Under the pieces are notes generated by a model. It had not been told where the DNA came from. It worked only from the letters and a program-made list of their open reading frames with translations, and did not search any database. From NCBI GenBank assembly GCA_947044365.1, contig OX345638.1, positions 2,300,701 to 2,364,700 on the forward strand: DNA of 64,000 nucleotides, read 5' to 3'. The stretch is from Petrosia ficiformis. Lineage: Eukaryota; Porifera; Demospongiae; Haplosclerida; Petrosiidae. Shown piece by piece: positions 13,400-46,189 of the stretch. Both the position numbers and the translations under genes were made by a program. Position 1 is the first letter of the stretch, and each line of letters starts with the position of its first letter.

Positions 13400-16300
13400 T
13401 TAAGAAAAATCTATTATTGGTAGTGGTTTTAGTGGATATAGTTTTTTGTGTTGTTCAATCAAACTCTTTTTCTGTGCTTTATAAGTATCCTCTATGAGTG
13501 GTGCATCCCATGACGTAATGTACTCAAGTGAGGGATGGAGGAAGATAGACTGGAGAAATTGTTGTGTTTGTTCTATCCATTTTATAGGTGGAGATGTGGT
13601 ACTATACGGGTGAGAGATCTGGAGTAATCTAAAGGTTGTGTGTAACTTTAACATGTTAGTAACAAGAGGTAGTACCTGTTCATAAAACAATGATTTTTGT
13701 TTCATCATAGTATTTAAAGTCGGATCTCTTGTGAAGTCCAGTTTGAGTTCAGTGAAGTGGTTCTTCTGTGAGATGACATTAAAGAAAGTTCTTATCTGTT
13801 CATTATTAGTAACTAATACTGGAATGAATACACTCAGCTCTTGTAGACTAGTGTTGTGTGAGAGACCAGTTGTCAGGAAGGACAGGTATGTACTAGAAAT
13901 ACTGTTCACTAAAAATGTTCCAATCTCCAGATATTCTATTGTTTGGTTTAGTTTTAACATATTTTGTAGACTAGTACCGATACTATCAATAATGGGTTTA
14001 ATCTTTATCTCCACTCTTAGATATTTAAGTGTAGTATTACTCTGTAGAATAGTAAAGAGTTCAATAGCACTCTCAGATGTGTATAGTTGTAAGTCAAGTT
14101 GTTGTAGACTAGGATGAGAGTGAAATAAAAGATGTGGTTGATATGGATAATCTAGTTTAATACAATGTAGTCCTTTGATATGAGGTAGAAGTGATGTTGA
14201 TAGTTTACTAGACCACCATGGTCCAACAATATCCAGAGTGGTGAGTGGTGTGTTTACCTCTACTATATTCAGTGATGATGGTAGGACTTGATCAGTTATA
14301 TTCAGTTTAAGAGCTTGTATTGTGTGGTTTTCTTTTAGTAAGTGTTCAATTGTTCCACCAGACAGAGGAGAACTAGTATGATCAACTTCAAGTGAGAATG
14401 ATGTTATTGTTTTATTTCTTGTTACTCCATTAATTAAACTAGTGATAGTTTTTTGAGTGACAGTACGATTGTCATTGTTTTTAAGCTGAAGCTTCATTTC
14501 TAGAAGTGTGGAATTCATTGCTATACATGTCTCTAGTTCAGAATACTTGTCTGTATGTAATATGGAGTGTGTACTATCATCTTTTAATTCCAAATTTTCT
14601 GTTGACAAGTGCAGTACTTTTATTATAGGAAGGTTGAGTAATTGTAATATCACAAGACAGAGATCAACTGGAATCTCATATAATTTACAATAGCACTCCT
14701 GAATATTGTGTAAGAATGATGGTTTCAATAATTTGTACACTGAATCATCAGCTACTCTAAACATCATTACCTCTAGTATCTTACACTGGTTCTGTTGTGA
14801 GTTGTTTGTTAGTGTATTAGTAAGGATTTGTACTTGCTGGTTATTTAGCAGTGATAGGTCCAAGTGATTCCATGATGTGTTAGAATTGTTGAGGAAATAA
14901 CTGAGACACAATATGTCAAACAGTGATAATCTTACTCCATCGAGACACAGTGAGTGGTTCTTCATGGATTGTGCTAATACTTGACATAATGTTGTGTTCT
15001 GTGATTCATACAGGAGTTGAAGTAGGAGAATGTCTAGTTTATCAAAGTAGTCTAAAGAGCAGTGACTACTTTCTAAAAATGATCGAATTTGAATTTCTGG
15101 ATGTTGTTGAAACCTGGAATGATAACAAGCATCAAATCCAAATTGTGGTCTCCTCTTACATTGTAAGTCAATTACTTTGTTGAAATACTGTTTGTAATCC
15201 TCATGTTCAAGGTGTGTTAGACCTGATACAAACCTCAGACACATTCGAAAGTGATCATCATTAAAGTGATCATTAAACACTTTCTCTGTCTTCTCATACA
15301 TAGCTATCCACCATGCTGCTAGAAATTCCTGGATACTCAAGTGAAGGAATTGATAACTTTTCTCTCCATGCACAGTAAATGTTGTCATTAGTCCTAGATA
15401 GTCTGCCTTGACAACTGACTCATCCAGAAACTGCTGGACTTGAAACAAAGAAAATGACATTCTTGGGTTTTTTTCATTCAAACTGAGGTAAGCAAACCTA
15501 CACATCTCTTGGAAAGGTGTAGATATGACTGGTGATGGTAAATGATGAAGGCTGTTTATTTTGTCAGGTTCAGTAAATTGAGTCTTTTTCACATATCTTC
15601 TGATAGTTTGTAGGATAAAGTTCTCATACAATTGTGTGAGTGTTGTTGGTAACTTTCCATTTTCCTTACGATAAACTAAGATGACTATGGAACAGACTAG
15701 TGGTATATAACACAATGACTGGACATCACCTCGTACTTTAAGATCTTGGATGAGTTTCTCTGCTAGACGAGGTTCCATTTGAAGTGTTCCATGGACTACA
15801 TTCTTAATTTCTTGTACTGTAAATCCCATCACCTCAACATGTCTATTGATAGTGTCTAAGTCAAGCAGTGAAGAGGAGGCATAGCTACGAGAGGTAACAA
15901 TTACTGAACATTTGTCTAATTGCCCTTTACGAATGATTCTAGATGCTAGTGAATGTCTTCTGAGGTCAACGCTTAACTCATCCCAACCATCAAAGATTAT
16001 CAGTAGTCCTTCACCATGTCTCCTGTCAAACCATTCTGTTACTATGTTCACTTCACGACATTTATAAATGAACATTAACAGGTCTCGTAGTGTACTAGCT
16101 TGAGCTATCTCATCATATCTCAGAGAACAGTAAATTACCAAATCATATTGTTGATGTTTGATTTGTCCATTAGCCCACATATTTAACAGTTTACGACAGA
16201 GAGTTGTTTTACCAATACCAGGAGGACCATCAATGACTATGGTAAGAGACTGACCACTCTTATTTGGTTTAAGGACATCCTCAATATCTATCAGTATAAT

Positions 16301-17558
16301 TTTATTATTAGTGAAACGTGGTAGTTTATCAATATTTCCTCTTAACATACACCAAGCTGTCTGCTGTATTGTTTCGGGATCAGCATGTCTGTCTTGTGAT
16401 TCTAATAGTGCTAATCTTCCAAAGAAGTCTTGTCCAACTCGTGGTGGCCAGTCTGTAGGAACAATAGGTTGGTGTTTATATTTATCTCTCATAATGTCAC
16501 AATATTGTTGTACATCAGGATCCAATAGACTAATGGATGTATCTTCATCAGTGATAGAATGACCTGTAGGTATGAAAGATAATAATAGTAATGAATGTTG
16601 TTTATGTAGAGAAGACTGACCTAACTGTTTTAATATGGAGGTAGCAATATCTGTTAGTGTCTGATGTTGTTGATTTCTTAATACATGACAAATATCATGT
16701 AGATACTGGTCTGGATCAGAATGTGTTTGTAGTTGTCTCTCTAACACAAGTACCAGTTTACTAGCTTTTTTATAATCTTCTGTAATGGAAAGTAAATTGG
16801 TCTTAACCTCAAATGGTATCAGGTTTTTAGCATACAATGCACTTGTCACTCTATTAGGTGTAGCGCTTAAGACATCAGTTAGATGAGCAGAGTGAACCCG
16901 TAATACTTTCCTTGGTTTCTGGTTAACTACAGAATATATATTAACTTTACTATTATATATACTTTTAGTCATTTTACTTACCAATTCCAATCTCTTTTCT
17001 CATTATATTAACTATATTACTACAGTCTTCACATTCCTCAACAGCTGAGATGAGTTCTTCCCAAGAGGCAGTGCTACAGTGATTAATCCACCATTGTAAA
17101 CCTTCTTCTAATGCAAAGTGGTAATCATGATCAGTGTTAGCCACTGTCTTGAGTCTCCTTCTCTCGTCCAGTGACACACCAAGAAGACTAATAAGTTGAG
17201 TCCATTTCTCTTTAACAATAAAACCACTCTTAACTAGAAGTCGTAGAGCATTGCTTGATGTCAACTCTAAATTTTGTGAGTATAATAATCATATCATACA
17301 AGACTACGGATTACTATTACCTGTTATAGGACCAGGGTTGAGTTCAATATCTCCTGATAAAGTGAGGAGAAGAAGCAGTCCACAGACTAGAGAGAAGGTT
17401 AGACCTCTAATCCACCTGATCCTAGTGACTCCATTTATCCTGCTGTTATCAGTGGTTACATCACTGGTGGAAGACTTTTTAGTACAGTGAGTATGATATG
17501 ATATCTGATGATAATACCATGATCCTATACTTGATCTCCATTGACAGATATCAATCAT
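13400..17558 (-). CDS. NLR immune receptor: 2A leader, DEATH, CARD-like, NACHT, LRR
   Basis: Intracellular NOD-like receptor. Exons 17558-17321, 17266-16982 and 16926-13400 (introns 54 and 55 bp, both phase 1) give about 1349 residues. Residues 1-77: leader with basic RIRWIRG, a hydrophobic stretch and GDIELNPGP. Residues about 80-174: DEATH-like fold (KWTQLISLLG...WWINHCSTASWEELISAVEE), one symmetrical exon. About 189-277: CARD-like helices (HLTDVLSATPNRVTSALY...). NACHT: Walker A GPPGIGKTTL near 408, Walker B LLIIFDGWDEL near 482, sensor VIVTSRSY near 516. Helical part with FLHLSIQEFLAAWW. About 840-1300: irregular leucine-rich repeats. NLRs of this build sense danger and oligomerise through NACHT. 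I chose ATG 17558 as the first Met upstream of the hydrophobic run; the frame is open further up. Two broken relatives lie at 41.97-45.5 kb. Confidence 0.93.
17328..17400 (-). other. 2A-like ribosome-skipping motif at N-terminus of the NLR
   Basis: On the minus strand a hydrophobic run (LVCGLLLLLTLS) leads into GDIELNPGP (core 17354-17328), the full 2A consensus. Four codons later the exon ends at ACAG|GTAATAG. Skipping would release a 76-residue leader and start the receptor with Pro; failure to skip would leave a signal- or anchor-like N-terminus. 2A-like signal sequences on NLRs are published for sea urchin; whether this one works is not shown here. Confidence 0.93.
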
Positions 17559-41965: not shown

Positions 41966-42660
41966 ATCAAATTCTATTATATATTGGTAATGGTTTTAGT
42001 GGATCTTGAGTTTTGTGTCAATCAATCTATTTTGCTGTGCTTTATGAGTATTCTGTAGGAGTTCTGAATACTGTATCTCAATGTACTGAAGTGAGGGATG
42101 GAGGTAAATTGCCTGCAAGAATTGTTGTATTGATTCCATCCAGTTAGGTGATGATTCATGTTTAGAAAGCAAACGGCACCATATTTGGAGTAGTCTGATG
42201 GTTGTGTGTGTAACTCTAACATGTTAGTAACAAGAGGTAGTACCTGTTCATAAAACAATGATGCTTGTTTCATATCAATGATGTCATAATCAGCTTCATC
42301 ACTGTAAGACTGATCTAGTTTGAAGTCTAGTTTGAGTTCAGTGAAGTGGTTCTTCTGTAAGACGACATTAAAGAAAGTTCTTATCTGTTCATTCTTAGTA
42401 GCTGATAATGGAATGAATATACTCAGCTCTTGTAGGCTAGTGTTGTGTGAAAGACCAGTTATCAGGGAAGACAGGTATGTACTAGATGATCAACTATTAT
42501 TTCCAGATATTCTATTGTTTGGTTTAGTGTTAACATATTTTGTAGACTATAGTACCTATACTCTCAGTAATGTCATTATTCTCAGTTACTCTATACAATA
42601 GTAAAAAGTTCAATAACACTCAGATGTGTCTAGATGTATGTCAAGTTGTAGACTGGGCTA
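41966..42660 (-). pseudogene. NLR fragment, LRR end only
   Basis: Minus-strand sequence closely related to the C-terminal part of the intact NLR: SLFYEQVLPLVTNMLELHT is recognisable and the end reads DPLKPLPIY. Frame is lost just after ELHT (an extra dinucleotide in the GTGTGT stretch) and further deletions occur near 42480-42650. No NACHT or death-fold part is present. It is probably a truncated tandem copy of the neighbour at 43012-45516. Confidence 0.85.
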
Positions 42661-43011
42661 TATCCAAGTGCTTCAGCTGTTATAAAAAAAAATTCAACTC
42701 ATAACTGGTGTATAACTATCATTGGTGAATTTAGAACCTATGCTGGGCAATGGTTTGATACTCCAGTTCATGCATGACACTGAGGGTACCAAATCCTCAA
42801 TCAGTGATATGTTACCCAAGGTAGAAATCACCGACAGTGTATCAAATTGCCACGTTAGTACAAAGTTCCTCTGTAATATATCTTTAGTGTTTAAAATTCC
42901 ACCTGGTGGATCAGTTAAAGTCTATAGTCAAGTACCAAACACAAGGAAAGGGTGAGTGATAGAATATTTCATTTTACATACAAAACTTCAAGCATGCACT
43001 ATAGCTATAGA
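42661..43011. other. Unassigned spacer between NLR fragments
   Basis: Contains a plus-strand frame at 42722-42955 (SVSNCHVSTKFLCNISLVFK...) ending before a GGGTGAGT donor-like site. Neither homology nor an acceptor supports it, so it is not called a gene. Confidence 0.4.
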
Positions 43012-45516
43012 TTATATAGTAAACTTTATAATTGGTAGTGGTTTTAGTGGATGATGATTTTTGTGTAGATCAATCGATCTCTTTTCATGTGATTTATGGG
43101 TATCTGTTAGAAGATTTGATCCCTTTATTCTAATGTACTGAAGTGAGGGATGTAGAAAGATAGCCTGTAAAAAATTTTGTATTAGTTTTGTCCAGTTAGG
43201 CGGAGATGATGTCAAACTGTAAACAACTCTGTAATTTATCTTGAGTAGTCTGATGGTTGTATGTAACTCTAACATGTTAGTAACAAGAGGTAGTGTCTGT
43301 TCATAAAACAATGATTCCCGCTTCGTGTTATCATATAAGTAAGATTGAATTACTCTAAAGTCTAGTTTGAGTTCAGTGAGGTGGTTCTTCTGTGAGATGA
43401 CATTAAAGAAAGTTCTTATCTGTTCATTGTTAGTATCTGATACTGGAATGAATACACTCAGCTCTTGTAGACTCGTGTTGTGTGAGAGACCAGTTGTCAG
43501 GAAGGAGAGGTATTTACTAGAAATTGTATCAACAAAACTATTCAAGTAAATCTCCAGATATTTTATTGTTTGGTTTAGTGTTAACATATTTTGTAGACTG
43601 GTACCCATACTGTCATCATTCTGTATCCACACTCTCAGAGATTTAAGTGTAGTATTACTCTGTAAAATAATAAAGAGTTCAATAACACTCTCAGATGTGT
43701 CTAGTGGTAAGTCAAGTTGTTGTAGACTAGGATGAGAGTGAAATAAAAGATGTGGTTGATATGGATGATATAGTTTAAGACAGTGTAGTCCTTTGATATG
43801 AGGAAGGAGTGATATTGTTGATAGTTTATGAGACTCCCATGAGTTAATCTCCAGAGTAGTGAGTGGTGTGTTTACCTCTACTATATTCAGTGATGATGGT
43901 AGGACATGATCAGGTACATTCAGTTTAAGAGTTTGTAGTGTGTGGTTACCTTTTAGTAAGTGTTCAATTGTTCCATCAGACTGAGGAGAAAAATTGCGAT
44001 CAACTTCAAGTGAGAACGATGTTATTGTTTTATTTCCTGTTACTCCATTAATCAAACTAGTGATAGTTTTTGGACTGACATATCGAGATTTACACTGAAA
44101 TTTCAGTTCTTGAACTGTAGAGTTCATTGTTATACATTTCTCTAGTTCAAAGTACTTGTGTGTATGTAATATGGAATTTGTACTCCCAACTTCTATTTCC
44201 ATATCTATTTTTAACAAGTGCAGTATTTTTACTAGAGGAAGGTTGAGTACTTCTATCATCACTAAACAGAGATCAAGTGGAATATTTCGTAATATACAAT
44301 AGAACTCTTGAATATTGTGTATGAATGATATTTTCAATAACTTGTACACTGAATCATCAGTTGTTCTATACAACATTACCTGTAGTATCTTACACTGGTT
44401 CTGTTGTGAGTTGTTTGTTAGTGTATTAGTAAGTATTTGTAACTGCTGGTCATTTAATAAAAATCCAAGGTCCAAGTGATTCCACGATGTGTTAGAGTTG
44501 TTGAGGAAATAACTGAGACACAATATGTCAAACAGTAATAAACTTACTTTATGTAGACACAGAGAGTGATTCTTCATGGATTGTGCTAATACTTGACATA
44601 ATTTTGTGTTCTGTGATTCATATAGGAGTTGAAGAAGGAGAATGTCAAGCTTATCAAAATAGTCTGAAGAGTAGTGAGTATGCCAACATGAACCCATTTG
44701 AATTTCTGGATTTTGTTGAAATCTGGAGTAATAACATGCATCAAATCCAAATTTTGGTTTCATCTTACATTGTAAGTCAACCTTTTTGTTGAAATACTGT
44801 TTGTAATCCTCATGTTCAAGGTATGTTAGACCTGATACAAACCTCAGACACATTCGAAAGTGATCATCATTAAAGTGATCATTAAACACTTTTTCTGTCT
44901 TCTCATACTTAGCTATCCACCATGCTGCTAGAAATTCCTGGATACTCAAGTGAAGGAATTGATAACTTTTCTCTCCATACACAGCAAACGTTGTCATTAG
45001 TCCTAGATAGTCCGCTTTGACAACTGACTCATTCAGAGACTGCTGGACTTGAAACAAAGAAAATGTCATTCTTGGAGTGTTTTCTTTCAAGCTTAGGTAA
45101 GCAAACCTACACATCTCTTGGAAAGGTGTAGATATGGCTGGTGATGGTAAATGATGAAGGCTGTTTATTTGTTCAGGTTCAGTTAATTGAGTCTTTTTCA
45201 CATATCTTCTGATAGTTTGTAGGATAAAGTTCTCATATAATTGTGTGAGTGTTGTTGGTAATTGTCCATTTTCCTTACGATAAACTAAGATGACTATGGA
45301 ACAGACTAGTGGTATATAACACAATGTCTGGACATCGTCTCGTACTTCAAGATCTTGGATGAGTTTCTTTGCTAGATGAGGCTCTTTTTCAAGTGTTCCA
45401 TGGACTACATTAATAATTTCTTGTACTGTAAATCCCATCACCTCAACATGTCTATTGATAGAGTCTAAGTCAAGCAGTGAAGAGGAGGCATAGCTACGAG
45501 AGGTAACAATTACTGC
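43012..45516 (-). pseudogene. NLR copy truncated inside NACHT
   Basis: An open frame of more than 800 codons, close to the intact receptor from VIVTSRSYASSSLLDLDSIN through FLHLSIQEFLAAWWIAKYEK and the leucine-rich repeats to PLKPLPIIKFTI. Similarity stops abruptly at 45516, within the NACHT sensor motif; the sequence beyond is unrelated AT-rich DNA. Walker A, Walker B, DEATH, CARD-like parts and the 2A leader are all missing. The remaining frame is free of stops, so truncation is recent, the fragment is still translated from an internal Met (near 45438), or an upstream exon was not recognised; the CAG at the boundary is shared with the intact gene and is not evidence for splicing. Confidence 0.85.
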
Positions 45517-46189
45517 ATATTATTTTATGAAACATTTTTCAGTTTTAACACGACATTAGCATTCACATAGTTCTCAGTTAAATCTTTTTTAGTTAAAGTA
45601 ACTAGGAAAATATGTTTACTGATTTGCTTGTATATAGTCAAGTTCAGAAATGAAGAATGTTCCTAGTGATGGCAATAGCATATCTGTAGAGTGAAAGTTT
45701 TATATTAAATAGTGTTTTTATAATTAAATAACTGCAGAAAAGAATTAATAATAATTATGAAATTATAACTATGATACAGAAACAATTGGTAGACCAATCT
45801 AATAATACTAGTGTAGTTTATGACCTGGTATTGTGTGTATTGTATTGTATATTTTTCACATGCAAGTAACTATTATAGCTATGTTCTCAAGGGCAATGTC
45901 CACATCTCCACTTCAATTGTTTCATGCACTTTTCAATTTCAAACAGCTCAAGAACAAAACGTTAATTTATAGTATATTTGCTGTAAAAAATACTACACTA
46001 CTTTCAAGTCATTCATGCGCTGATGGAATTGACAAGTAAGACTACCTCCAGATAACAAAAACTGGATTAAGTTTAGCCAACAAACAAAACTTAATTGTAA
46101 GAGGATATGAAATCCTAACCATCCACACTGGTCTTTAGTACACACCTATGGCTTGTCATATTTACTCCTGGTATAATCACTAATCGTAT
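45517..46189. other. No feature recognised
   Basis: AT-rich spacer with a few TTAGTTAA fragments. I see no exon signals and no repeat of note. Confidence 0.5.

Follow-up and report, generated by a model that had tools for sequence, protein, structure and literature searches.

A 2A motif at the N terminus of an NLR is known from the sea urchin Strongylocentrotus purpuratus. In the report by Roulston et al. (2016, PMC4981915), the N-terminal element of SpNLR2A comprises 26 aa and gave approximately 80% recoding in vitro, and a recoding-dead mutant of this 2A sent a reporter to the exocytic pathway. The core of StopGo sequences is defined as (D/G/C/N)(V/I)ExNPGP in PMC12846837 (Li et al. 2026), where the natural upstream classes include L-rich hexamers ending in (A/S/C)G before the D. 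Of these classes, motifs 2 and 6 are LLLLSG-like; where motifs 1, 3, 4 and 6 were tested through representatives in lysate, activity ranged from 92.7% to almost 100%. For sponges, NLRs of Amphimedon queenslandica and Dysidea avara with predicted transmembrane domains are described as putative membrane-bound receptors in PMC12909245. Among the best matches of the literature listings, no 2A leaders were reported in sponge immune genes.

The window is a stretch of 64,000 nucleotides from Petrosia ficiformis (contig C3, 2300701-2364700), and the genome searched comprises 191 Mb on 29 contigs. On its minus strand the window carries an intact NLR gene with a 2A-type leader, as the preliminary description had proposed. 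The complete leader exon, exon 1 (17321..17558), has 79 codons plus 1 nt. Its translation starts with MIDICQWRSSIGSW, continues through a linker and a hydrophobic stretch into LLTLSG-DIELNPGP and closes with GDIELNPGPIT at a phase-1 donor (ACAG/GTAATA). Intron 1 (54 bp; 17267..17320) and intron 2 (55 bp; 16927..16981) are both short, in phase 1 and of the GT-AG type. Exon 2 (16982..17266) encodes a DEATH domain (Pfam PF00531, E 1.8e-5), and exon 3 (13400..16926) encodes a CARD fold, a NACHT domain and a C-terminal part up to the stop codon, giving a spliced frame of 1349 aa for the leader and receptor together.

The CARD-fold domain lies at the start of exon 3 (16610..16924), an assignment resting on a separate comparison and not on the Foldseek result alone; Foldseek by itself gave no match for the model at E <= 0.001, its best hit (0.032) being a CARD. 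The NACHT domain (15791..16243) was matched by Pfam (PF05729, E 2.6e-20), and the family profile matched NLRP3 structures across the NACHT part of the receptor. The gene thus has the NACHT NTPase and the N-terminal death folds (Death and CARD fold) of an NLR. The DEATH, CARD-like and NACHT parts named earlier were all recovered, and the LRR part stands unconfirmed: the C-terminal part, where LRRs would be expected, showed a weak excess of L..L.[LIV], and a Pfam search of it gave no LRR match. The nearest named relatives of the receptor are NACHT proteins of A. queenslandica (54-57% identity). A second receptor copy is present on the minus strand at 41969-45540 in broken pieces, the main one approximately 76% identical from mid-NACHT on; leader, Death and CARD parts for this copy were unmatched within the window.

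The leader begins with a conserved head (residues 1-18, MIDICQWRSSIGSWYYHQ; 17505..17558), recognized by invariant positions and a low pN/pS. A variable, near-neutral linker (residues 19-48; 17415..17504) separates the head from a hydrophobic segment (Kyte-Doolittle; residues 49-68; 17355..17414), a possible membrane anchor that overlaps the LLTLSG hexamer belonging to the 2A. Since the L-rich 2A itself requires part of this hydrophobic stretch, the segment need not be a membrane anchor. The best 19-residue Kyte-Doolittle mean in this gene was 1.95, for residues 53-71, so that the hydrophobic window ends 5 residues ahead of the release glycine. The 2A core GDIELNPGP (17328..17354) has its predicted release point at Gly76/Pro77. 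DIELNPGP conforms to the StopGo core, and the hexamer ahead of it, judged by eye, is LLLLSG-like with SG before the D. LLTLSG fits an L-rich upstream class described in PMC12846837, and skipping of the Gly-Pro bond by the exon 1 element is therefore likely by analogy with published StopGo work. The structure predicted for the leader consists of two helices (residues 4-25 and 38-69) at low confidence (pLDDT 66.5, pTM 0.33).

Far from being exclusive to the gene in the window, the leader is a first-exon cassette common to many NLR genes and some genes of the DEATH-ankyrin type. The 26-base 2A string of the gene in the window (locus L028) occurs at 34 genomic sites with at most two mismatches, 31 of them exact, mostly between 1.25 and 2.5 Mb on C3 and otherwise elsewhere on C3 and on C9. 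In this C3/C9 family of 31 loci (L009-L038 and L097) the leader frame was open in 30; that of L036 was closed 17 residues ahead of the 2A. Other 2A leaders of the genome have different middles and follow the same plan of a head, a hydrophobic part and a GD(V/I)ExNPGP end. The head reads M-I-D (or S)-x-x-Q-W-R-x-x-I-G, where V or S can replace I, and among 11 diverse leaders M1, I2, Q6, W7, R8 and G12 were invariant.

Leaders were also selected independently of the 2A, by a DNA pattern for the head alone (M-I-D-x-x-Q-W-R). It found 125 genomic sites, and the reversed control found 0. A canonical 2A lay within 600 nt on the same strand in 96 of the 100 head sites listed (out of 125), in frame by coordinates in 95 of the 96, and 4 of the 100 were without one. 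Two of these four, C10:4978781 and C1:25258626 on the minus strand, are situated 1.9 and 1.5 kb ahead of a NACHT domain with no listed canonical 2A and so lend themselves to a comparison of what the 2A does.

Leader lengths in the Petrosia genome ranged from 63 to 97 aa, with 77 aa up to the final Pro in the gene in the window. In all 56 leaders compared, the hydrophobic window ended 3-9 residues ahead of the release Gly, and the residues before the D of the 2A were SG, CG or AG in 55. At a further locus, L047, the 2A is not preceded by an open leader, and this locus was excluded from the leader counts. A GT donor was read from the sequence 4, 7 or 10 nt past the Pro codon, always in phase 1, in 53 of the 56 leaders, indicating that the 2A closes a portable exon. 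An exon that ends in its own release signal could in principle join any phase-1 gene and would leave few residues on the protein.

The three leaders without the usual phase-1 donor are the MISLQQWR copies at L002, L004 and L008. These MISLQQWRMTIGCF...DVERNPGP leaders lie in copies that share approximately 98% identity along as much as 3 kb and may be part of a repeat. Receptor similarity was absent from the 1.5 kb past the 2A at all eight repeat loci L001-L008, of which these three have the head. The window itself contains a second 2A core at 2438-2461 on the plus strand (LLLLLLLLLLVLCG-DVESNPGP). A possible GTGAGT donor follows one base past its Pro codon, a CAG resembling an acceptor precedes the leucines, and its frame has no QWR head. 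The DVESNPGP core, in which one Pro codon is CCC or CCT, recurs at at least six other places on C3 and C4.

The leaders sit on immune genes. Among 103 scored NACHT domains (of 249 candidates), 67 had a listed 2A on the same strand within 6 kb upstream (65 within 5 kb) and 36 had none within 6 kb; a listed 2A downstream was found within 5 kb for 0 of the 103 and within 10 kb for 7. These counts are lower bounds because the lists cover 100 of 106, 40 of 40 and 100 of 200 matches for the 2A and 100 of 125 for the head, along with the NACHT sample given above. A tandem NACHT cluster at approximately 4.5-6.6 Mb of C10 accounts for 43 of the 49 scored NACHT matches of that contig, 38 of the 49 having a listed 2A within 6 kb upstream.

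The 1.5 kb past the 2A was compared with the gene in the window, its NACHT relatives and the proteins of the leader search described below (A. queenslandica is named among both of the latter). Receptor similarity was found at 27 of the 31 C3/C9 loci, 4 having none, and, for the range L039-L068, at 23 of the 24 loci that have both head and 2A. Of those 23, 19 matched best to the Death exon of the gene in the window and three (L044, L067 and L068) resembled Death-ankyrin or Death proteins; the similarity at L060 was to the receptor body. At L055 this interval showed no receptor similarity. A leader on every DEATH gene was considered and rejected: none of 94 DEATH matches on C7, C11, C1 and C18, found with a DEATH piece of P0210, had a 2A within 6 kb upstream in the GGACC and GGTCC lists. 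On C7 and C11 the DEATH-domain matches form clusters, some with open frames of more than 2800 aa, again with no listed 2A within 6 kb upstream.

A homologous leader is present in A. queenslandica on NACHT and DEATH-ankyrin proteins. A single comparison with a leader of that sponge gave E 2e-9. When residues 1-95 of an A. queenslandica NLR served as the query, 96 proteins were retrieved at E <= 10, with the head pattern in 93, a 2A-type NPGP in 94 and both in 92, a joint count that is biased upward because the query held head and 2A. Of the 96, 65 are named, all from A. queenslandica, the remaining 31 being unnamed ENA entries. According to Pfam, 51 contain NACHT (all named), 42 contain ankyrin without NACHT (11 named) and 3 contain neither; gene models may have been fused in some cases. 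The head was close to MIDVSQWRASIGLWNY throughout the 93 proteins that bear it, and the hexamer ahead of the 2A was exactly LLLLSG in 74 of the 92 with both elements. A profile of 11 leaders retrieved 389 leader-like short frames at E <= 1; among the 120 of these listed, which came without source names, M-x4-QWR was present in 120 and the 2A core in 118.

Selection on the leader was assessed by pN/pS in the C3/C9 family (n = 30, L036 dropped) and a second family (n = 16), with leaders chosen by their 2A side only. The conservation of the 2A itself was not counted because the loci had been found by that motif. In the head (first 18 codons) pN/pS was 0.17 in the C3/C9 family and 0.32 in the second, in the linker 1.00 and 0.87, and in the 20 hydrophobic codons ahead of the 2A 0.25 and 0.30. 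Codons with amino acid changes were fewer in the head than in the linker in both families (4/18 vs 19/30, Fisher P = 0.0078; 6/18 vs 40/41, P = 1.9e-7) and fewer in the hydrophobic part than in the linker (P = 0.042 and 0.036), these P values being indicative only because the copies are related. The head and the hydrophobic part are under purifying selection, and the linker is near neutral. The leader is accordingly likely to be translated, and constraint acts on two of its parts in addition to the 2A.

Purifying selection on two parts in two families, together with the homology to A. queenslandica leaders, speaks against a leader that is a dispensable 5' sequence copied along in tandem receptor duplications, with the 2A merely clearing exon 1 away. 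In favor of such a passenger are the 31 exact occurrences of the 26-base string, which point to recent copies, the 4 of 31 C3/C9 leaders that lack receptor similarity in the following 1.5 kb and the near-identity of the MISLQQWR copies, but we regard it as improbable.

It is very improbable that transcripts begin downstream of the leader or splice around it, leaving the 2A untranslated ahead of most receptors. The bases ahead of the 2A in the C3/C9 family (cttcttctcctcactttatcag) do resemble a splice acceptor, and CAG precedes the 2A in 32 of the 56 leaders, 29 of which belong to that family. However, CAG is missing in the other 24, which weakens the acceptor-site reading; a frame with pN/pS well below 1 at both ends argues for translation, and the UniRef gene models of A. 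queenslandica join the leader to the receptor.

We slightly favor an interpretation in which a single mRNA is translated, through StopGo, into a small microprotein of the membrane and a separate cytosolic receptor, and in which the head has a selected function. Exon 1 would then act as a self-releasing leader cassette, with LLTLSG-DIELNPG/P causing most ribosomes to skip one Gly-Pro bond. The first product would be a peptide of 76 aa with the head MIDxxQWRxxIGxW and the hydrophobic segment near its C terminus. The second would be a soluble, cytosolic DEATH-CARD-NACHT receptor beginning with Pro.

The exit tunnel of the ribosome holds approximately 30-40 residues. With the hydrophobic window only 3-9 residues from the release Gly, the segment would still be inside the ribosome at the moment of skipping, and a released leader would have to insert after its synthesis, as tail-anchored proteins do. 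For the gene in the window we therefore regard the released leader as a product in its own right rather than a signal to be removed. Its insertion would probably follow release, as for tail-anchored proteins, and would leave the head on the cytosolic side together with the receptor; the head could have a function of its own, for example to mark a membrane or to arm it. Receptor chains that escape skipping, possibly a minority, would retain the leader, and its segment, exposed later, would serve as a type II signal anchor. The anatomy, homology, linkage, exon phase and selection on the head and the hydrophobic part are findings; the skipping is deduced from published StopGo work, and the topology, the tail anchoring and the role of the head are inferences. 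In 78 of the 89 search-match leaders with any hydrophobic segment, the first segment ends 50-89 residues ahead of the release and would emerge before skipping. Tail anchoring would be inapplicable to those leaders, and the topology may differ between Petrosia and A. queenslandica.

The preliminary description envisaged a leader that is either split off, leaving a cytosolic receptor, or retained as a signal or anchor. Both outcomes follow from the sea urchin work (PMC4981915), but a signal-only view is incomplete, given a head under purifying selection. If selection kept only the choice between a skipped cytosolic and an unskipped membrane or secretory receptor, the freed peptide would have no job. 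Such dual targeting was demonstrated for the sea urchin NLR 2A leader in HeLa and plant cells, with the in vitro recoding cited above (PMC4981915). It agrees with the Petrosia leaders in that the hydrophobic window had a mean of at least 1.6 in 55 of 56 and a net positive charge ahead of it in 54 of 56, and with the designation of sponge NLRs with predicted transmembrane segments as putative membrane-bound (PMC12909245). It leaves unexplained why pN/pS of the head is 0.17-0.32 while the next 30-41 residues are near neutral, and why the head is kept between Petrosia and A. queenslandica; the conserved head is something that a signal peptide does not need. In addition, the tested upstream classes were active at 92.7% or more in PMC12846837, which would leave little unskipped protein. 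Dual targeting as the sole selected function is judged unlikely.

The leader offers a concrete alternative to the view that some sponge NLRs are membrane-bound, and it draws attention to a conserved microprotein that has gone unstudied. In a single animal genome 125 head sites were found, a canonical 2A accompanying 96 of the 100 that were listed, and in A. queenslandica a homologous cassette is seen on two kinds of immune proteins; if the elements work, programmed bond skipping would be a regular part of a cellular immune repertoire. On a bolder reading, somewhat less likely than not, a sponge lineage may have adapted ribosome skipping to give innate immune genes a first exon that is portable and removes itself. 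Each such gene would then supply, in a one-to-one ratio, a cytosolic receptor with a death fold and a conserved microprotein of the membrane whose head, MIDxxQWRxxIGxW, signals in its own right, and NLRs called membrane-bound on account of this segment would be soluble.

Compared with the 2A of non-LTR retrotransposons, the sequence studied here likewise has its core near the start of the frame, but exon 1 continues into coding exons for DEATH, CARD and NACHT, and a retrotransposon remnant was rejected on that ground. Nine 2A sites of the genome (L049, L050, L051, L059, L066 and L069-L072), which we take to be those of non-LTR retrotransposons, have Cys/His-rich sequence downstream of the 2A and showed neither a QWR head nor downstream receptor similarity. 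With viral StopGo/2A sequences (Li et al., PMC12846837), the sponge leaders share the canonical core and an LLLLSG-like upstream class; unlike those, they form a cellular gene family with many copies. The sponge NLRs of PMC12909245 are of the same phylum and receptor class and have a hydrophobic segment in the gene model, but a 2A past that segment would part it from the receptor.

The closest parallel, already and correctly pointed out in the preliminary description, is SpNLR2A (PMC4981915), which also has an N-terminal 2A motif on an NLR and whose leader is itself a predicted signal sequence. The order of parts in Petrosia resembles the sea urchin type in its 2A leader, DEATH and NACHT, with a CARD fold in between; Pfam gave no LRR match for the C-terminal part. 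The short leader of 26 aa that is itself the signal was not found here: the leader of the gene in the window has 77 aa, with its hydrophobic window at residues 53-71. By description, the sponge leaders of 63-97 aa are set apart from the SpNLR2A of PMC4981915 by a separate conserved head, a linker and a common phase-1 exon end, and by their use on genes of the DEATH-ankyrin type as well. A 2A leader on NLRs is thus already known from the sea urchin, and the longer, head-bearing leader is a new variation on it.
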